Source of the DNA: Solobacterium sp.
GTDB taxonomy: Bacteria > Bacillota_I > Bacilli_A > Erysipelotrichales > Erysipelotrichaceae
Assembly: GCA_017510405.1 (NCBI GenBank)
Contig: JAFWNG010000045.1
Coordinates: forward strand, 62,001-126,000
DNA: 64,000 bases
Direction: 5' to 3'
Part shown: one piece after another, positions 3,786 to 11,884 of the stretch
Position numbering within the stretch: position 1 is the stretch's first letter
Layout of the letters: the number at the start of each line of letters is the position of its first letter
Translations under genes and position numbers: made by a program
The notes under the pieces: model-generated
What the model saw: only the letters and a program-made list of their open reading frames with translations
The model's database searches: none
Told to the model about the DNA's origin: nothing

Positions 3786-5147
3786 TTACAGAATGTCACC
3801 CAAGTCCGGCATAACGGCCGGATCATGCCAGCTGCGGTCAAGATGCGGCGTAATGCAGCATCCCCGCATGCCGTCCTGTTCAACCTGATCGATTTGTTCA
3901 TGATAGATTCTGTAACAGTCACCCGGCGGCAGAATACTGTACTCCGTATTCTTTCCCGGACTGAAGGAACGAAGGTCTGACGGACGGAAACTATCTGTTA
4001 TCTTACAGAACCACATTTCATTCTCCGGTATGTTTTCATTCAGGATCATTTCCGATGATCCTGTATTTATTTTCCCGGCCTCCTGTACAGATAAAGGATT
4101 TACTGCACAGACTGCCAGGCAGGCAGTATCCTGATCAATGCCGTCAATAAACGGCACTGCATACTCTTCGGCCAGACGCACTGCCTTTGCATCTTCCGCA
4201 GGCAGGGTCAGTCGTCCGACGCCGATGCCGGCAAATCTGCATGTTCCGGAGACCTTCAGAATATCCCTGCCTTTTTCCGAAATGCTCTTATAACCTTCCG
4301 CGACAGACAGAGAAGCCAGAATACAGTTCGAGGAATACTCTATGTAATCCCGGAAACTCTTCAGTAATTTCGCTTCCAGATTCATTCCGGAGATCAGAAA
4401 GCATCGGTCCATCGGTCTGTCCCGCAGAATCTTTATCTCATTCGAGTTGAAACACGGCACAGATAATCCGAAATCATATTGATCCGGCAGACAGCCGTCT
4501 GCCGCCAGCATAAACGCATTGATTTCCCGCATTGCTGCATAAGTATTTGCCATGATCTCATCCCGCTGTGATTTCGAATGGATCAGTGAATCAAATACCT
4601 CCGGCAGAAGGAAGAAACCGCTAATACTGACAGATGTATCCGGCAATTCTGCTTTTACATAATCGCGGATATACAGAGACAGAGGCAGGATCTGTGCAGA
4701 CCCGGTAAACCCGCATAAGGAACCTGTGAGGATCACCTGTATCGATGATTTGCTGTCAGGGTCTTTCAGCTGACTCAGTCTCTCCAGAATACTGTTCAAT
4801 ACCTGCAGTTTTCCCCTTCGAACTGCCGTATTAAAGGACAGTCGGAAGGCAGCCCGCAGGAAGACCGGCGAATACCTGTCATAATACCGGAAAGAATATT
4901 TGGGGAACCAGTTTTTACATGCGTCCTCATCAAGTTCAAGACATTCCGAAAGCGGGAGGCTTTCCCAAAGGCTGACGGTTTGAATGGAAGGTATCTTTTC
5001 CTGAATACTCTCCATTTCATATTTATCTGTATCCATACAGACAATTTGAATATTGTTTTTCTGACGTTCTGATGCATTCTGAAAGACCGTCTTCGCAATT
5101 GTCGTTCCCGATCCTCCCAGTCCGATGATCAATGTCGGATGATTCAT
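3786..5147 (-). CDS. Tubulin-like protein (Tubulin_2 family) with degenerate nucleotide loop
   Basis: A 453-residue cytoplasmic protein that looks like the bacterial tubulin-like family Pfam calls Tubulin_2. Residues 8-17 read GLGGSGTTIA, the first glycine-rich loop. Near residue 155 comes the strand-loop ILTGSLCGFTGSAQ, where relatives carry the tubulin GGTGSG signature, followed by a helix LSLYIRDYV. Further on, a GFFLLPEVF strand and an ANTYAAMREIN helix match the family pattern. The GTP loop is degenerate (CGFTGSA), so nucleotide binding or polymerisation may be altered. I start at the ATG giving MNHPT, since AAGGA abuts the ATG three codons upstream too closely. The gene stands alone, and its function is unknown. 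Confidence 0.65.
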   Translation of the reverse strand: MNHPTLIIGLGGSGTTIAKTVFQNASERQKNNIQIVCMDTDKYEMESIQEKIPSIQTVSLWESLPLSECLELDEDACKNWFPKYSFRYYDRYSPVFLRAAFRLSFNTAVRRGKLQVLNSILERLSQLKDPDSKSSIQVILTGSLCGFTGSAQILPLSLYIRDYVKAELPDTSVSISGFFLLPEVFDSLIHSKSQRDEIMANTYAAMREINAFMLAADGCLPDQYDFGLSVPCFNSNEIKILRDRPMDRCFLISGMNLEAKLLKSFRDYIEYSSNCILASLSVAEGYKSISEKGRDILKVSGTCRFAGIGVGRLTLPAEDAKAVRLAEEYAVPFIDGIDQDTACLAVCAVNPLSVQEAGKINTGSSEMILNENIPENEMWFCKITDSFRPSDLRSFSPGKNTEYSILPPGDCYRIYHEQIDQVEQDGMRGCCITPHLDRSWHDPAVMPDLGDIL

Positions 5148-5270
5148 AGTGTCCATTTCCTTTCTCACTTCTTCTGCCCGAATTGTATCATAATGCCGGA
5201 CAGAGTACCTAACGGCGGATACAATTCCCGCCGGCAAAAAACAGCGTACACGCTGTACACTGTCAGGACG

Positions 5271-7424: not shown

Positions 7425-8378
7425 TCATCGATCCATTACTACGACGATCTTTCCGTCTACACCTTTTTCTTGTGCTTTGACAGCCTGCTTTATATCTGAA
7501 AACTTAAAGGAAGCCCCTATAAAAGGCATAATGCCGTGTTCGTCAATAAAAGCAAATATTTTGTCTATTGTTTCCTGCGTGGGATAGTTCGAGAAAAAAC
7601 CTGTGAGATAACACCCGTTCGGTATTTCCTTTATCGGATCAAATCCATTCAGATAATACTCTCCTCCCAAAATCCCGGTATTACAGACGATTCCTCCGCG
7701 GTAAAGATGACCGAGAGAATTTCTGATGGTCCTCGGGCCGATCAGTTCTAATATCTTATTCGCATAAAATCCGTCCGGCAATTTGTTTGCAGGATCAAAG
7801 AGAGTTTCACAGCCAAGATCGGTGATCAGATGCATTTTTTCTCTTTTGTGCGTTGTTCCGTACACCTTACATCCGAGCGCCTTTGCAATCTGCATGGCAG
7901 CATAACCCAGCGCGGATGTGGCTCCTCTGATAAGAAGTATATCGGACGGCTGCAGATTCAGACATTCAAACAGGGAACCCCATGCCGTGAAAAAGGTCTC
8001 CGGAATTGCTGCAAGTTGTTCTATGTCAAGATTTGAAGAGACATGAAACACTTTCTGAACAGGCAGAATGGCATATTCCTCATAGGAACCGTTATAATTT
8101 CTTCCGAGTCCGCCCATCAGAGAGCAGACCAGATCACCTTTTTCAAAACCGTTGTCAAACGATTCTTCAACAATTCCCACGCATTCAATACCCGGCACTA
8201 TAGGTTTATTGATATAGTCCGCACGAATTTCACTGATGCGAAGTACGAGTTCCGAGTGGTTCATGCCAAAGGCTAATATCTTTACAAGTACCCAGCCTTT
8301 CCGGGCTTTAGGTATTTCAAGTTCTTCAAGGAGAATATCGTCGCTGTTTGTAATATCTCTTAAGATTACAGCCTTCAT
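7425..8378 (-). CDS. MDR-family oxidoreductase (quinone reductase-like), RiPP-operon member
   Basis: A 317-residue medium-chain dehydrogenase/reductase. A GroES-like N-terminal domain (residues 1-120) is followed by a Rossmann domain with an ATSALGYAAMQIAKALG segment near residue 155, consistent with NADPH binding. Neither the catalytic nor the structural zinc cysteine set is present, as expected for the quinone-reductase branch. Its ATG overlaps the stop of the radical SAM maturase by 4 nt, so it is co-expressed with the RiPP cassette. It could reduce or tailor the modified peptide, but this is inferred from position. Base composition is more AT-rich than most of the window. Confidence 0.82.
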   Translation of the reverse strand: MKAVILRDITNSDDILLEELEIPKARKGWVLVKILAFGMNHSELVLRISEIRADYINKPIVPGIECVGIVEESFDNGFEKGDLVCSLMGGLGRNYNGSYEEYAILPVQKVFHVSSNLDIEQLAAIPETFFTAWGSLFECLNLQPSDILLIRGATSALGYAAMQIAKALGCKVYGTTHKREKMHLITDLGCETLFDPANKLPDGFYANKILELIGPRTIRNSLGHLYRGGIVCNTGILGGEYYLNGFDPIKEIPNGCYLTGFFSNYPTQETIDKIFAFIDEHGIMPFIGASFKFSDIKQAVKAQEKGVDGKIVVVMDR

Positions 8379-9415
8379 TCATCTACCTCCATCCAGCACT
8401 GCGGATCTGCATCGTACATATTATGTGTGTATCCATAGGCAACAGCCGGACAGCCGCGGCAGTATGCTTTCAGCCTGCATTTACTGCATTTCACAAATTT
8501 GTCATACTGCCTGTATTCATCAAACTTTGCTGAAGTCCACAGATCATACAGGCTTGTATTCATCACTGATCCAATCTCTGATTCCATTCTCCGACATGCA
8601 CAGACCATGCCTGTCGGCAGGATCGTCACGTGGTTCCTGCCGCAGTTGCAGCCATCAATAACAGCATTGGCAGGAAGACTCCCGTCCGGTTTAAACAGTC
8701 CTTTTTCGTATTTATATAAAGTCCATAAATGATCCTTCAGCTGATATGTTGTTCTGGAGTTTTTGTGGGCCAGGTATCGCTCGAAGCACTCATCCATGTA
8801 CGCTTTGTACTCCTGCGGGGTCATATGAATATCAGGATCATACGCCTTTTCTATGCTTGTCGGACAGTAGCGTCCAACCGCATATACATCAACGCCGAGT
8901 TCGTCGGCCAGATCGATAAGAGCAGGAATCTCTTTGTGATTTGTTTTAGAGACAGTGGACATGACGGCTGCCCACATACCTGACGCTTTAATAAGTCTGA
9001 TTGCTTCAAGTGTAGCTTTATAACTGCCCGGTTTACGAAACATATCATGCGTCTTTTCCAAGCCGTCCAGGGAGACTTGATATTTTACACAGCCAAGGTC
9101 ATGCATTCGTCTGCAGACATCCGCGGTCAGATGGAACGGATTTCCCATAATGCAGAAACGCAGCTTTTTTTCATGAAAGTATTCAAGTAATCTCCAGAAG
9201 TCCGGGTGAAGGATCGGATCGCCGCCCGTAAGATAGATATATGGAGTTCTGTTTATTCTGTCGCAGAAGTCGACGATCTGATTTGTAACATGAATCATAT
9301 TATCGAAGGGCATTGTAATTAACACGGGATGACCTTCAGAAAAAATATAACAATGCCTGCATCGCTGATCACAATAGTCAGTGATATGCCATTGAATCGC
9401 AAAATAATTCTTCAT
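8375..9415 (-). CDS. Radical SAM/SPASM peptide maturase (ACGX-type system)
   Basis: A 346-residue radical SAM enzyme. The SAM-binding [4Fe-4S] ligands are Cys15, Cys19 and Cys22 (CDQRCRHC), followed by YLTGGDP. The C-terminal third holds a SPASM domain with cysteines in CNCGRNH, VCACRR and CSKCRLKAYCRGCP, which ligate auxiliary Fe-S clusters. Such enzymes make C-C or thioether crosslinks in small peptides. Directly upstream is a 30-codon gene with two ACGT repeats, matching what I recall of the predicted radical SAM 'ACGX system' in TIGRFAMs. AAGG precedes the ATG. A terminator-like hairpin separates it from the precursor gene. Confidence 0.88.
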   Translation of the reverse strand: MKNYFAIQWHITDYCDQRCRHCYIFSEGHPVLITMPFDNMIHVTNQIVDFCDRINRTPYIYLTGGDPILHPDFWRLLEYFHEKKLRFCIMGNPFHLTADVCRRMHDLGCVKYQVSLDGLEKTHDMFRKPGSYKATLEAIRLIKASGMWAAVMSTVSKTNHKEIPALIDLADELGVDVYAVGRYCPTSIEKAYDPDIHMTPQEYKAYMDECFERYLAHKNSRTTYQLKDHLWTLYKYEKGLFKPDGSLPANAVIDGCNCGRNHVTILPTGMVCACRRMESEIGSVMNTSLYDLWTSAKFDEYRQYDKFVKCSKCRLKAYCRGCPAVAYGYTHNMYDADPQCWMEVDE

Positions 9416-9420
9416 ATTTT

Positions 9421-9466
9421 ACCTTGATAAAAACGAAGGCGTCAACTCATCCGGAATTGACGCCTT
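9421..9466 (-). terminator. Attenuating terminator between precursor peptide and maturase
   Basis: Perfect 10-bp arms (9436-9445 and 9457-9466) enclose an 11-nt loop and are followed on the minus strand by CGTTTTTATC. The hairpin lies after the precursor stop and before the maturase ribosome site. It should let the precursor be made in excess, with some readthrough. Confidence 0.8.
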
Positions 9467-9471
9467 GCTTG

Positions 9472-9564
9472 TTACTTTGCTTCCGGGTCTATCGTTCCGC
9501 AAGCCGGTGCGAGCTCCGGATCTTTCGTTCCGCAAGCAGTGCCTGTAACCTTTTCATCGAACAT
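9472..9564 (-). CDS. RiPP precursor peptide with two ACGT repeats
   Basis: A 30-residue peptide gene with an ideal ribosome site (AAAGGAG at 9574-9580, nine bases before the ATG). The short leader starts MFDEKVTGT. The core holds two near-identical units, ACGTKDPE (from Ala10) and ACGTIDPE (from Ala21), and ends EAK. The two cysteines are the only ones in the peptide. Placement directly upstream of a radical SAM/SPASM enzyme makes it the likely substrate. The repeat form agrees with the ACGX-repeat peptides paired with such enzymes. The finished product is unknown. Confidence 0.82.
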   Translation of the reverse strand: MFDEKVTGTACGTKDPELAPACGTIDPEAK

Positions 9565-9700
9565 AGCGCTTTTCTCCTTTCAAAGATTCTATTTATAGTT
9601 TATTTGATGACAAAGAGAAAGCATCGGTCAAATATAGACTAAGAGTCGGATTTTGTGCTATAAAAAAACATGCCCGAATGACAATAAGGAGTACCTTTTT

Positions 9701-10282
9701 ATGAAGCAGTATAAAGAAGCCAGACAGCGCACAAAGGCTAAGATCGAAGATGCTTACTGGGATCTGATGATGAATAATGAGCGGATAACGGTAAAGAAAA
9801 TCATCGAGAAAGCCGGTATTCATAAGTCTACATTTTATTTCTACTATGAATGGTCCGATGATGTTCTGGCAGAAATCAAAACACGTTTAATGAACCTGCT
9901 GGTTTCTACGATCGAGAGTAAGAATCGAGAGAATGGCAACTTCCAGCAGGTAATGATAGAAATGAGGAAGATGTTCCGGGAAAATCGAAAGTATCTCATC
10001 CCATTGGTTCTGGAACAGCGTGGCGGAGAGTTTGCGGTAAATTACCGGGAATATATCAAAGAACATTTTGCAGAAGATATCGGATTGGATTATAAAACAG
10101 GAAATGATGTTAAAAATGATGTAGCTAATTGTGTTCTTGCGGGATTGGTGGAAATCATGCTGTATGAGTTGTCCAGTGAAATAATCCCTGACGAGTTCAC
10201 CTATAAGATCGGTGACGGTATTATCAGAAAGGGTGTCGCGCTGACACTAAGAGAAGATTTGAATATCAAGTTTGGAAAGTAA
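9701..10282 (+). CDS. TetR/AcrR-family regulator
   Basis: A 193-residue DNA-binding regulator. The N-terminal helix-turn-helix spans about residues 8-55 (ITVKKIIEKAGIHKSTFYFYY), followed by an all-helical ligand domain. I start at the ATG at 9701 because AAGGAG at 9686-9691 is well placed, rather than further upstream. It is transcribed divergently from the ACGT-repeat peptide and maturase genes across a 136-bp AT-rich gap, so it probably controls them and itself. No operator palindrome stands out there. Confidence 0.88.
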   Translation: MKQYKEARQRTKAKIEDAYWDLMMNNERITVKKIIEKAGIHKSTFYFYYEWSDDVLAEIKTRLMNLLVSTIESKNRENGNFQQVMIEMRKMFRENRKYLIPLVLEQRGGEFAVNYREYIKEHFAEDIGLDYKTGNDVKNDVANCVLAGLVEIMLYELSSEIIPDEFTYKIGDGIIRKGVALTLREDLNIKFGK

Positions 10283-10465: not shown

Positions 10466-11884
10466 TCAAACAGCAGGATCCATCAGTGTAAGCCATTTTT
10501 CCCGTTTCAGGCGGATCAGGAACAGGATGCCGCGGAAGCTCAGTTCCACTGCCATGGCGATCCAGACGCCGGGCAGTCCGAGTGTCTTTGACAGGAACCA
10601 TGCCATCGTAATGCGCACGCCCCAGATACTGACCAGATTCATCAGTCCCGGTACAAGCGTATCCCCTGCTCCTCTGAGTGCACCGGTCGCTACGATCGAC
10701 GCTGCAAAGAGCGGTTCTGCGAACAGTTCAATGCGAAGCACCTGTACGCCCAGTGCCCGTACTGCCGTGTCTGGTGTCAGGAAATTAAATACTAACGGAC
10801 ATGCAAAGTACATCAGGATGCCGCCTGCCGTCATGATTGCCACGCCGGTGCCGGTCGTGATCCACGCAAAACTGCGCGCCATGTCTTTCCGCTTCGCACC
10901 GATCGCCTGTCCCACCAGAGTCGTCGCCGCCGCTTCTATTCCGTAGCCCGGCATATAGCAGAGCGATTCCGCTGTGACGGCGAAGGAGTTTGCCGCAATT
11001 GCCACTGTGCCGAGCGGAGCCACGATCGCGGTCGAAACGACCTGTGCCAGACAGAGCGCAGACTGTTCCAGCGCCATCGGCACGCCGATCTTTACCGCTC
11101 TGGTCAGATCGTTTTTCTGCAGTTTCCAGCTGCCGCCAAGCGATACCGCAAGTACCGGCGATCTCACACAGACCGCATACATCATGAGTACTGCGCACAC
11201 TGCGAATGACAGCGCCGTGCCGAGTGCCGCACCTTTTACACCCAGTCCCGCACCCCATACAGGAATATCTCTGCCAAACAGCCCGACCGTGCGTGACGGA
11301 AAGATCAGGAAATAATTGAATACCACATCCAGCAGACACGTCAGGGATGCAAGAATGCTCGGTGTACGCATATTGCCCGTACACTGCAGCATTCCCTGCG
11401 CCAGATAGAACATCATGCGCACCAGAAGGAATTCCCCGTATACCCGGAAATACGCCGAAGCATCCGGACGGATCGAGACGTCTGCGCCAAGCCATGCCGG
11501 CAGATATGCACTGACGATGATCACGATCAGCGAAAGAAACGCTCCCATCAGCATGGAGATGATCACCCCCTGGTGAAACAATTCCCGCGATTTTTCCGTA
11601 TTTCCGCCGCCGACAGCCTGTGCCACCTGTACGGAAAAACCAGCCACCGAAGCAAATAAAAGACTGCCCGCCAGCCACGTACTGGAAGAGACCAGGCCGA
11701 TCGATGCGCTCGCCGCCGCACCAAGGCTTCCTACCATGGCAGCGTCGATATACTGCATAATGATCTCACTGATCTGCGCCAGAATTCCCGGCAGAGACAG
11801 TTTTCCGGTAATCTCAAGTTTTCTTCGAAACGATATATTTTCCTCTTCCCGCAGCATCCGGGACAGTTCCAGTTCCTGTGCCAT
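10466..11884 (-). CDS. MATE-family efflux transporter
   Basis: A 472-residue, twelve-helix multidrug and toxic compound exporter that works by Na+ or H+ antiport. The N-terminal half carries the family pattern PGILAQISEIIMQYIDAAMVG and QAVGGGN. The second half repeats it with GVPMALEQ and LVGQAIGA. No Shine-Dalgarno site precedes the ATG. Instead TATAAT ends seven bases before it, suggesting a leaderless transcript. The substrate is unknown. Confidence 0.9.
   Translation of the reverse strand: MAQELELSRMLREEENISFRRKLEITGKLSLPGILAQISEIIMQYIDAAMVGSLGAAASASIGLVSSSTWLAGSLLFASVAGFSVQVAQAVGGGNTEKSRELFHQGVIISMLMGAFLSLIVIIVSAYLPAWLGADVSIRPDASAYFRVYGEFLLVRMMFYLAQGMLQCTGNMRTPSILASLTCLLDVVFNYFLIFPSRTVGLFGRDIPVWGAGLGVKGAALGTALSFAVCAVLMMYAVCVRSPVLAVSLGGSWKLQKNDLTRAVKIGVPMALEQSALCLAQVVSTAIVAPLGTVAIAANSFAVTAESLCYMPGYGIEAAATTLVGQAIGAKRKDMARSFAWITTGTGVAIMTAGGILMYFACPLVFNFLTPDTAVRALGVQVLRIELFAEPLFAASIVATGALRGAGDTLVPGLMNLVSIWGVRITMAWFLSKTLGLPGVWIAMAVELSFRGILFLIRLKREKWLTLMDPAV

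Follow-up and report, generated by a model that had tools for sequence, protein, structure and literature searches.

The four-gene set at positions 7425-10282 of the window (the whole stretch of 64,000 nucleotides of DNA analysed here from the gut bacterium Solobacterium sp.) is almost certainly a cassette of the ACGX system. The cassette is intact, probably TetR-controlled and a member of a divergent ACGX clade. Radical_SAM and SPASM domains were found in the maturase product, which scored 491.9 bits against TIGR04340 ("radical SAM/SPASM domain protein, ACGX system"; curated cut-off 400), bearing out both the SPASM radical SAM maturase and the ACGX identity proposed in the first-pass annotation, which was made from the letters of the sequence. 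That annotation knew of no product of the system, and none was found in the literature for any ACGX system; in the literature searched, outside which most subscription journals lie, no paper combined ACGX with radical SAM or named TIGR04340 or TIGR04341. The features of the locus and its surroundings are as follows.

7425..8378, minus strand: MDR oxidoreductase of the quinone/enone reductase type, 317 aa, whose ATG overlaps the stop of the maturase gene (ADH_N and ADH_zinc_N domains, NCBIfam, AlphaFold, conservation).
8375..9415, minus strand: AcgM-type radical SAM/SPASM maturase, 346 aa (TIGR04340, conserved cysteines).
9436..9466, minus strand: terminator-like hairpin in the gap between the precursor and maturase genes (stem and T-rich tail, conserved).
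9472..9564, minus strand: AcgA-type precursor, 30 aa, with two ACGTxDPE units (sequence, homologous peptides in relatives).
9514..9537, minus strand: first unit, ACGTKDPE, Cys-X3-Asp (sequence, motif statistics).
9481..9504, minus strand: second unit, ACGTIDPE, Cys-X3-Asp (sequence, motif statistics).
9574..9580, minus strand: ribosome-binding site of the precursor gene, AAAGGAG (sequence, AGGAGG-type site in relatives).
9629..9653, minus strand: candidate TetR operator, AAATCCGAC-N5-GTCTATATTTG (conserved in the clade, single genome match).
9701..10282, plus strand: divergent TetR-like regulator, 193 aa (Pfam, weak; profile search; conservation).
10466-11884: MATE transporter gene, convergent, near the TetR gene.
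3786-5237, minus strand: elsewhere in the window, a 483-aa protein with a match to the tubulin-like family PF13809 (98.6 bits).

The 30-codon gene with its two ACGT units, its ribosome-binding site and the 4-nt overlap of the MDR and maturase genes (8375-8378) had all been described before and are all present in the sequence. The small gene encodes MFDEKVTGTACGTKDPELAPACGTIDPEAK, placing the two units in a short peptide 56 nt upstream of the maturase gene. The repeat units are beyond chance: translating the window in six frames gives the pattern ACG[TSA]xDP two times, against none in 20 triplet shuffles, and the repeat DNA pattern has exactly two matches in the organism's own genome, both at this locus. 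At 42.9%, the cassette is lower in G+C than its flanks (50-51%), which fits acquisition as a unit. The gene families common between loci of the window clade are TetR, precursor, maturase and MDR, with hardly any others except between L033 and L034, and the cassette seems to move as a four-gene unit. A phage origin was rejected, as no relative was found in viral-contig or phage collections.

When species genomes were scanned, 16 loci proved close (75-88% identity) and a single one distant. The close loci come from metagenome-assembled genomes of Clostridia, Bacilli and Spirochaetia, mostly with ruminant-gut labels, and the clade to which the window belongs has ACG[TSA]xDP repeats and TetR control. 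In the 14 relatives with a complete upstream region, a peptide of three to five such units stands ahead of the maturase gene; conservation of the small gene beside this maturase family had been set beforehand as a check that could refute the reading, and the relatives keep the repeat peptide in place. One relative from goat rumen has a maturase frame broken near residue 245-250, which tblastn returns in two pieces (L048:3655-4696). A canonical clade, found by family-model searches within the same family, order, class and phylum, has peptides built of the units ACGAAD, ACGAAE and CGSACGAGD. Named ACGX loci lie on plasmids of Roseburia sp. 831b (annotated acgA and acgM), Subdoligranulum variabile and the archaeon Methanosphaera sp. 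ISO3-F5. The last of these plasmids, from sheep rumen, carries a seven-unit ACGX peptide, an MDR gene and a frameshifted maturase gene (L135:5025-6377), an apparent case of transfer between domains. A tblastn search of plasmids with the precursor gave no match even in records with a known precursor, and is thus insensitive for repeat peptides.

Neither the window peptide nor the five-unit peptide of L033 gave any hit to the precursor model TIGR04341 (cut-off 28), whereas three canonical peptides scored 31-103 bits. TIGR04341 is a detection model and not a definition of the ACGX system, and these scores indicate a divergent precursor clade missed by the present model, so that many gut genomes probably contain genes of this type that lack annotation. 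With two units, the window peptide is the shortest among the peptides examined. This shortness relative to the three to five units of relatives, together with a linker ELAP where EPAP is usual, could mark a decayed remnant in a non-functional cassette; we regard this as highly improbable, since every invariant residue is kept in both units, no radical SAM or SPASM cysteine is lost, and the ribosome site, hairpin and operator-like block are all conserved. The CX3CX2C motif is Cys15/19/22, invariant among the aligned maturases, as are the SPASM cysteines 256, 274, 310, 313, 319 and 322; 24 of the 25 rows have cysteine 340, the exception being a shortened row.

Cys-Gly is constant across ACGX units. 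Among the cysteines of CG units in 27 peptides, leaving aside those that come first in a CGxxC doublet, the first acidic residue stands at exactly +4 in 113 of 113, a count that is not to be read as a probability because units taken from related peptides are not independent of one another. Judged from these sequences, the weight of the rule lies in a spacing that is constant despite varying unit length (9 to 20 residues from unit to unit in the same 27 peptides) and a choice of Asp or Glu. The 27 further cysteines, each the first of a CGxxC doublet in canonical peptides, have no acid at +4. Both units of the window peptide have the Cys-X3-Asp/Glu arrangement. The exceptions to CX3[D/E] were L134 and L135. 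In one repeat from Roseburia the first acid stands at +7, and the Methanosphaera peptide, from the plasmid copy with the frameshifted maturase gene, has Glu at +3 in all seven units; a universal CX3[D/E] rule was therefore rejected.

The fixed Cys-X3-acid spacing, as in the substrates of PapB, predicts Cys-to-Asp thioethers. PapB, the freyrasin enzyme, joins the Cys of CX3D/E motifs to Asp at C-beta or to Glu at C-gamma, with a loss of 2 Da each (PMC9413430), and QhpD forms the same kinds of bond (PMC11002830). We would give even odds that the acid at +4 serves as the crosslink partner, with one Cys-Asp thioether per unit, and the CX3D layout agrees with the loss of 2 Da that had been expected for each repeat. 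Only nine residues of peptide precede the first unit, and the maturase would thus probably recognize the units themselves. The first cysteine of its CX3CX2C motif is preceded by just 14 residues, which leaves no N-terminal RRE domain.

Family kinship of the maturase, on the other hand, does not favour a ranthipeptide, since it scored far higher with the SbtM model TIGR04082 (185.7 bits), the nearest other curated family, than with the PapB family NF047865 (62.1 bits, below the cut-off of 340). The main rival is an SbtM-type reaction, in which four hydrogens would be removed from each Cys-Gly unit to give a thiooxazole, and the product would be a metal-binding or redox-active peptide. SbtM itself removes four hydrogens from the Cys or Sec on which it acts (PMC11002830). 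Cys-Gly, the invariant pair of the ACGX units, is also present in the copper-binding thiooxazole peptides made by other enzyme families (PMC12538549). However, a thiooxazole leaves the fixed acid at +4 unexplained, the maturase falls below the SbtM cut-off of 350 bits, and such an acid is missing from the SbtA-like peptide next to an SbtM gene, whose motifs are SGU/CSG, so that we consider this reading unlikely. An SbtA-like peptide ahead of a Desulfospira SbtM gene (L085:1183-1428, plus strand) contains three in-frame TGA codons, presumably for Sec.

The AhbD model came next after SbtM, with 148.7 bits, and NirJ (110 bits) and mycofactocin MftC (93 bits) were also among the nearest models to the maturase. 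AhbD, NirJ and MftC work on carboxylate-bearing groups. Taken with the conserved acid of the units, these scores would allow an oxidative decarboxylation or dehydrogenation of the acid, of the sort that these three enzymes carry out on their own substrates, with no link to Cys; this reading is very unlikely, as it leaves the equally constant Cys-Gly unexplained, and SPASM enzymes with Cys-X3-Asp substrates make thioethers (PMC9413430). The structural model of the maturase (pLDDT 87.9) has a SPASM-type fold with anSME, CteB and ChlB as tied best matches. Its fold neighbours are SPASM peptide and sulfatase maturases broadly (anSME, CteB, ChlB, SkfB, SuiB) and do not discriminate between chemistries.

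The MDR enzyme had been taken as an addition to the system, a view that the distribution of the gene does not support. The MDR gene directly follows the maturase gene in 30 of 33 loci, from both clades (tblastn), with the 4-nt overlap present in most loci of the window clade. Within the genus, the MDR subfamily was found in 11 of 11 genomes with an above-cut-off maturase and in 1 of 59 others, giving a Fisher p of about 6e-12 that ignores relatedness; in that single other genome the MDR gene lies 563 bases from the start of a contig. MDR and maturase distances are also correlated (Spearman 0.71; 0 of 500 permutations as high). The MDR enzyme is thus a usual partner of the maturase, and a one-off addition was rejected on the adjacency and co-occurrence.

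What this partner does is less clear-cut. Pfam assigned ADH_N and ADH_zinc_N domains, and the best NCBIfam model was quinone_pig3 (TIGR02824), at 133 bits below its cut-off of 296.8. The AlphaFold model (pLDDT 87.4) had its best matches among quinone-oxidoreductase and MDR folds, and a zinc-free fold of the MDR superfamily is supported. The first-pass annotation had the enzyme make a further reduction, which as tailoring of the peptide might, for instance, act on an unsaturated maturase product, and the gene overlap, near-constant presence, co-occurrence and correlated divergence with the maturase all speak for such a role. Yet in 6 of 37 loci (L071, L073, L075, L134, L136 and L137) precursor and maturase are kept with no adjoining MDR gene and with a nitroreductase (five of the six) and/or a sirtuin-macrodomain pair (a sirtuin in all six) instead. 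The nearest families and structures of the MDR enzyme are quinone/enone reductases, and the other partners resemble detoxification genes. The kinship makes detoxification beside the peptide at least as likely as reduction of the peptide, and we therefore rate tailoring as somewhat unlikely.

The divergent TetR gene noted in the first-pass annotation is present, although its assignment is uneven. The Pfam TetR_N score is weak (15.5 bits, under the gathering score of 24), while a profile made from eight members of the TetR-like protein had TetR proteins as its best PDB matches (E 2.5e-8). The gene is present at every clade locus with enough upstream sequence. Between the TetR and precursor genes, the block AAATCCGAC-N5-GTCTATATTTG is conserved across the clade, with small changes in distant members, and has a single match in the organism's own genome, making it a candidate TetR operator. 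The hairpin at 9436-9466 consists of a 13-pair stem followed by a T-rich tail. It is kept in relatives with changed sequence, compensatory changes being seen in 6 of 12 pairs, and is also present in many canonical loci; it would be a usual means of making precursor exceed enzyme.

The neighbours of the canonical loci give some indication of a cellular role. These loci have a divergent HxlR regulator, in which an N-terminal CPVAT cysteine is present in 14 of 15, and the HxlR/DUF24 regulators YodB, CatR and HypR sense quinones, diamide and HOCl via N-terminal cysteines, with HxlR controlling aldehyde detoxification (PMC6943732). Recurrent neighbours are a ferredoxin-nitroreductase, a PNPOx-ferredoxin, a macrodomain protein and a sirtuin with the motif QG that marks class M. 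A class-M sirtuin gene adjoins the ACGX maturase gene in 11 of 37 loci (L046, L068, L071-L075, L077, L134, L136 and L137), often with a macrodomain gene. The sirtuin is present in 100 of 315 genomes, too common for co-occurrence to count as a dedicated link to ACGX, and only its adjacency to the maturase gene is informative. The genome of the window has two sirtuin relatives away from the cassette (G000:C18:62457-63335, L106; G000:C38:2054-2947).

We tentatively favour, at a little under even odds, an intracellular role in redox or electrophile stress over an exported antibiotic, as far as gene neighbourhoods allow. The window locus has TetR in place of HxlR and neither a sirtuin nor a nitroreductase gene next to it, so the case for a stress role is extrapolated from relatives. 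The alternative is a product that leaves the cell as an antimicrobial or signal. Most of the radical SAM peptide systems studied in gut Firmicutes have been interpreted in this way, and a MATE gene lies nearby. This gene qualifies the earlier statement that no exporter or protease is adjacent, but it is absent from the loci of relatives and was for that reason rejected as a product exporter; the statement stands in that the loci have no exporter or protease gene in common. Across 33 loci no gene for an exporter, a protease or immunity was conserved, no signal peptide was seen in the precursor sequence, and the neighbours are of a redox kind, which together render export improbable.

A more specific and equally improbable proposal is that ACGX peptides are ribosomally made redox carriers, the counterpart of lipoyl GcvH-L in the SirTM operon. 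In full, this would involve Cys-X3-Asp/Glu crosslinks, exchange of electrons or electrophiles with the MDR enzyme or nitroreductase, and reversible ADP-ribosylation of the acid-rich peptide where a class-M sirtuin and a macrodomain protein are present. Lipoyl GcvH-L is the target of SirTM/Zn-Macro pairs in an operon for oxidative stress that also encodes two oxidoreductases, and no substrate is known for such pairs elsewhere (PMC4518038, PMC11490716).

Taken together, the best explanation, to which we assign a probability of about 0.45 as a whole, runs as follows. A TetR-like repressor would keep the operon off via the GAC-N5-GTC site, and on induction the intervening hairpin would yield peptide in excess of enzyme. 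The radical SAM/SPASM enzyme would then take a hydrogen from the methylene of the acid four positions past each Cys, and a thioether from Cys-S to Asp-C-beta would close, for a loss of 2 Da per repeat and 4 Da for the window peptide. The modified peptide would stay inside the cell, beside an NADPH-dependent MDR reductase of the quinone/enone type, in redox or electrophile stress.

The ACGX system is known as a family of sequence models, and the constant Cys-X3-acid spacing makes its modification a specific, testable prediction, for which the 30-residue, two-unit peptide is the simplest ACGX substrate seen. The neighbours offer a first hint of the role of the system, in redox or electrophile stress, and ACGX peptides are now tied to sirtuin/macrodomain pairs.

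Compared with known systems, the window locus shares with the ACGX system (AcgM, TIGR04340 rSAM_ACGX; AcgA, TIGR04341; for example on the Roseburia sp. 831b plasmid) an above-cut-off maturase with a repeat peptide directly upstream, and the canonical clade also has the MDR neighbour. It differs from canonical ACGX in a precursor outside TIGR04341 with ACGxxDP units, no CGxxC doublets and only two units, and in a TetR-like in place of an HxlR regulator with no adjoining sirtuin, macrodomain or nitroreductase gene. The freyrasin/PapB ranthipeptides, and QhpD, likewise combine repeated Cys-X3-Asp/Glu units with a SPASM radical SAM enzyme (PMC9413430, PMC11002830), but the window maturase scores 62.1 against 340 bits for PapB, has no N-terminal RRE region and would act on a peptide with a very short leader. 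The SbtM/SbtA thio(seleno)oxazole system has the nearest other maturase family and a cysteine-bearing, repeat-like substrate; SbtM, however, has about 200 extra N-terminal positions (the match covers 198-515 of 516), and the SbtA-like peptide, with SGU/CSG motifs, Sec codons and an N-terminal hydrophobic stretch, is unlike the window peptide. The SirTM/Zn-Macro operon resembles the ACGX relatives in pairing a class-M sirtuin and a macrodomain protein with a sulfur-bearing small substrate candidate and oxidoreductases (PMC4518038, PMC11490716), but no GcvH-L or lipoate ligase was seen in ACGX cassettes, and the window locus has neither sirtuin nor macrodomain gene. The ACGX kind itself is thus already known, and what is new is a divergent precursor clade, its TetR control and the shortest peptide seen.
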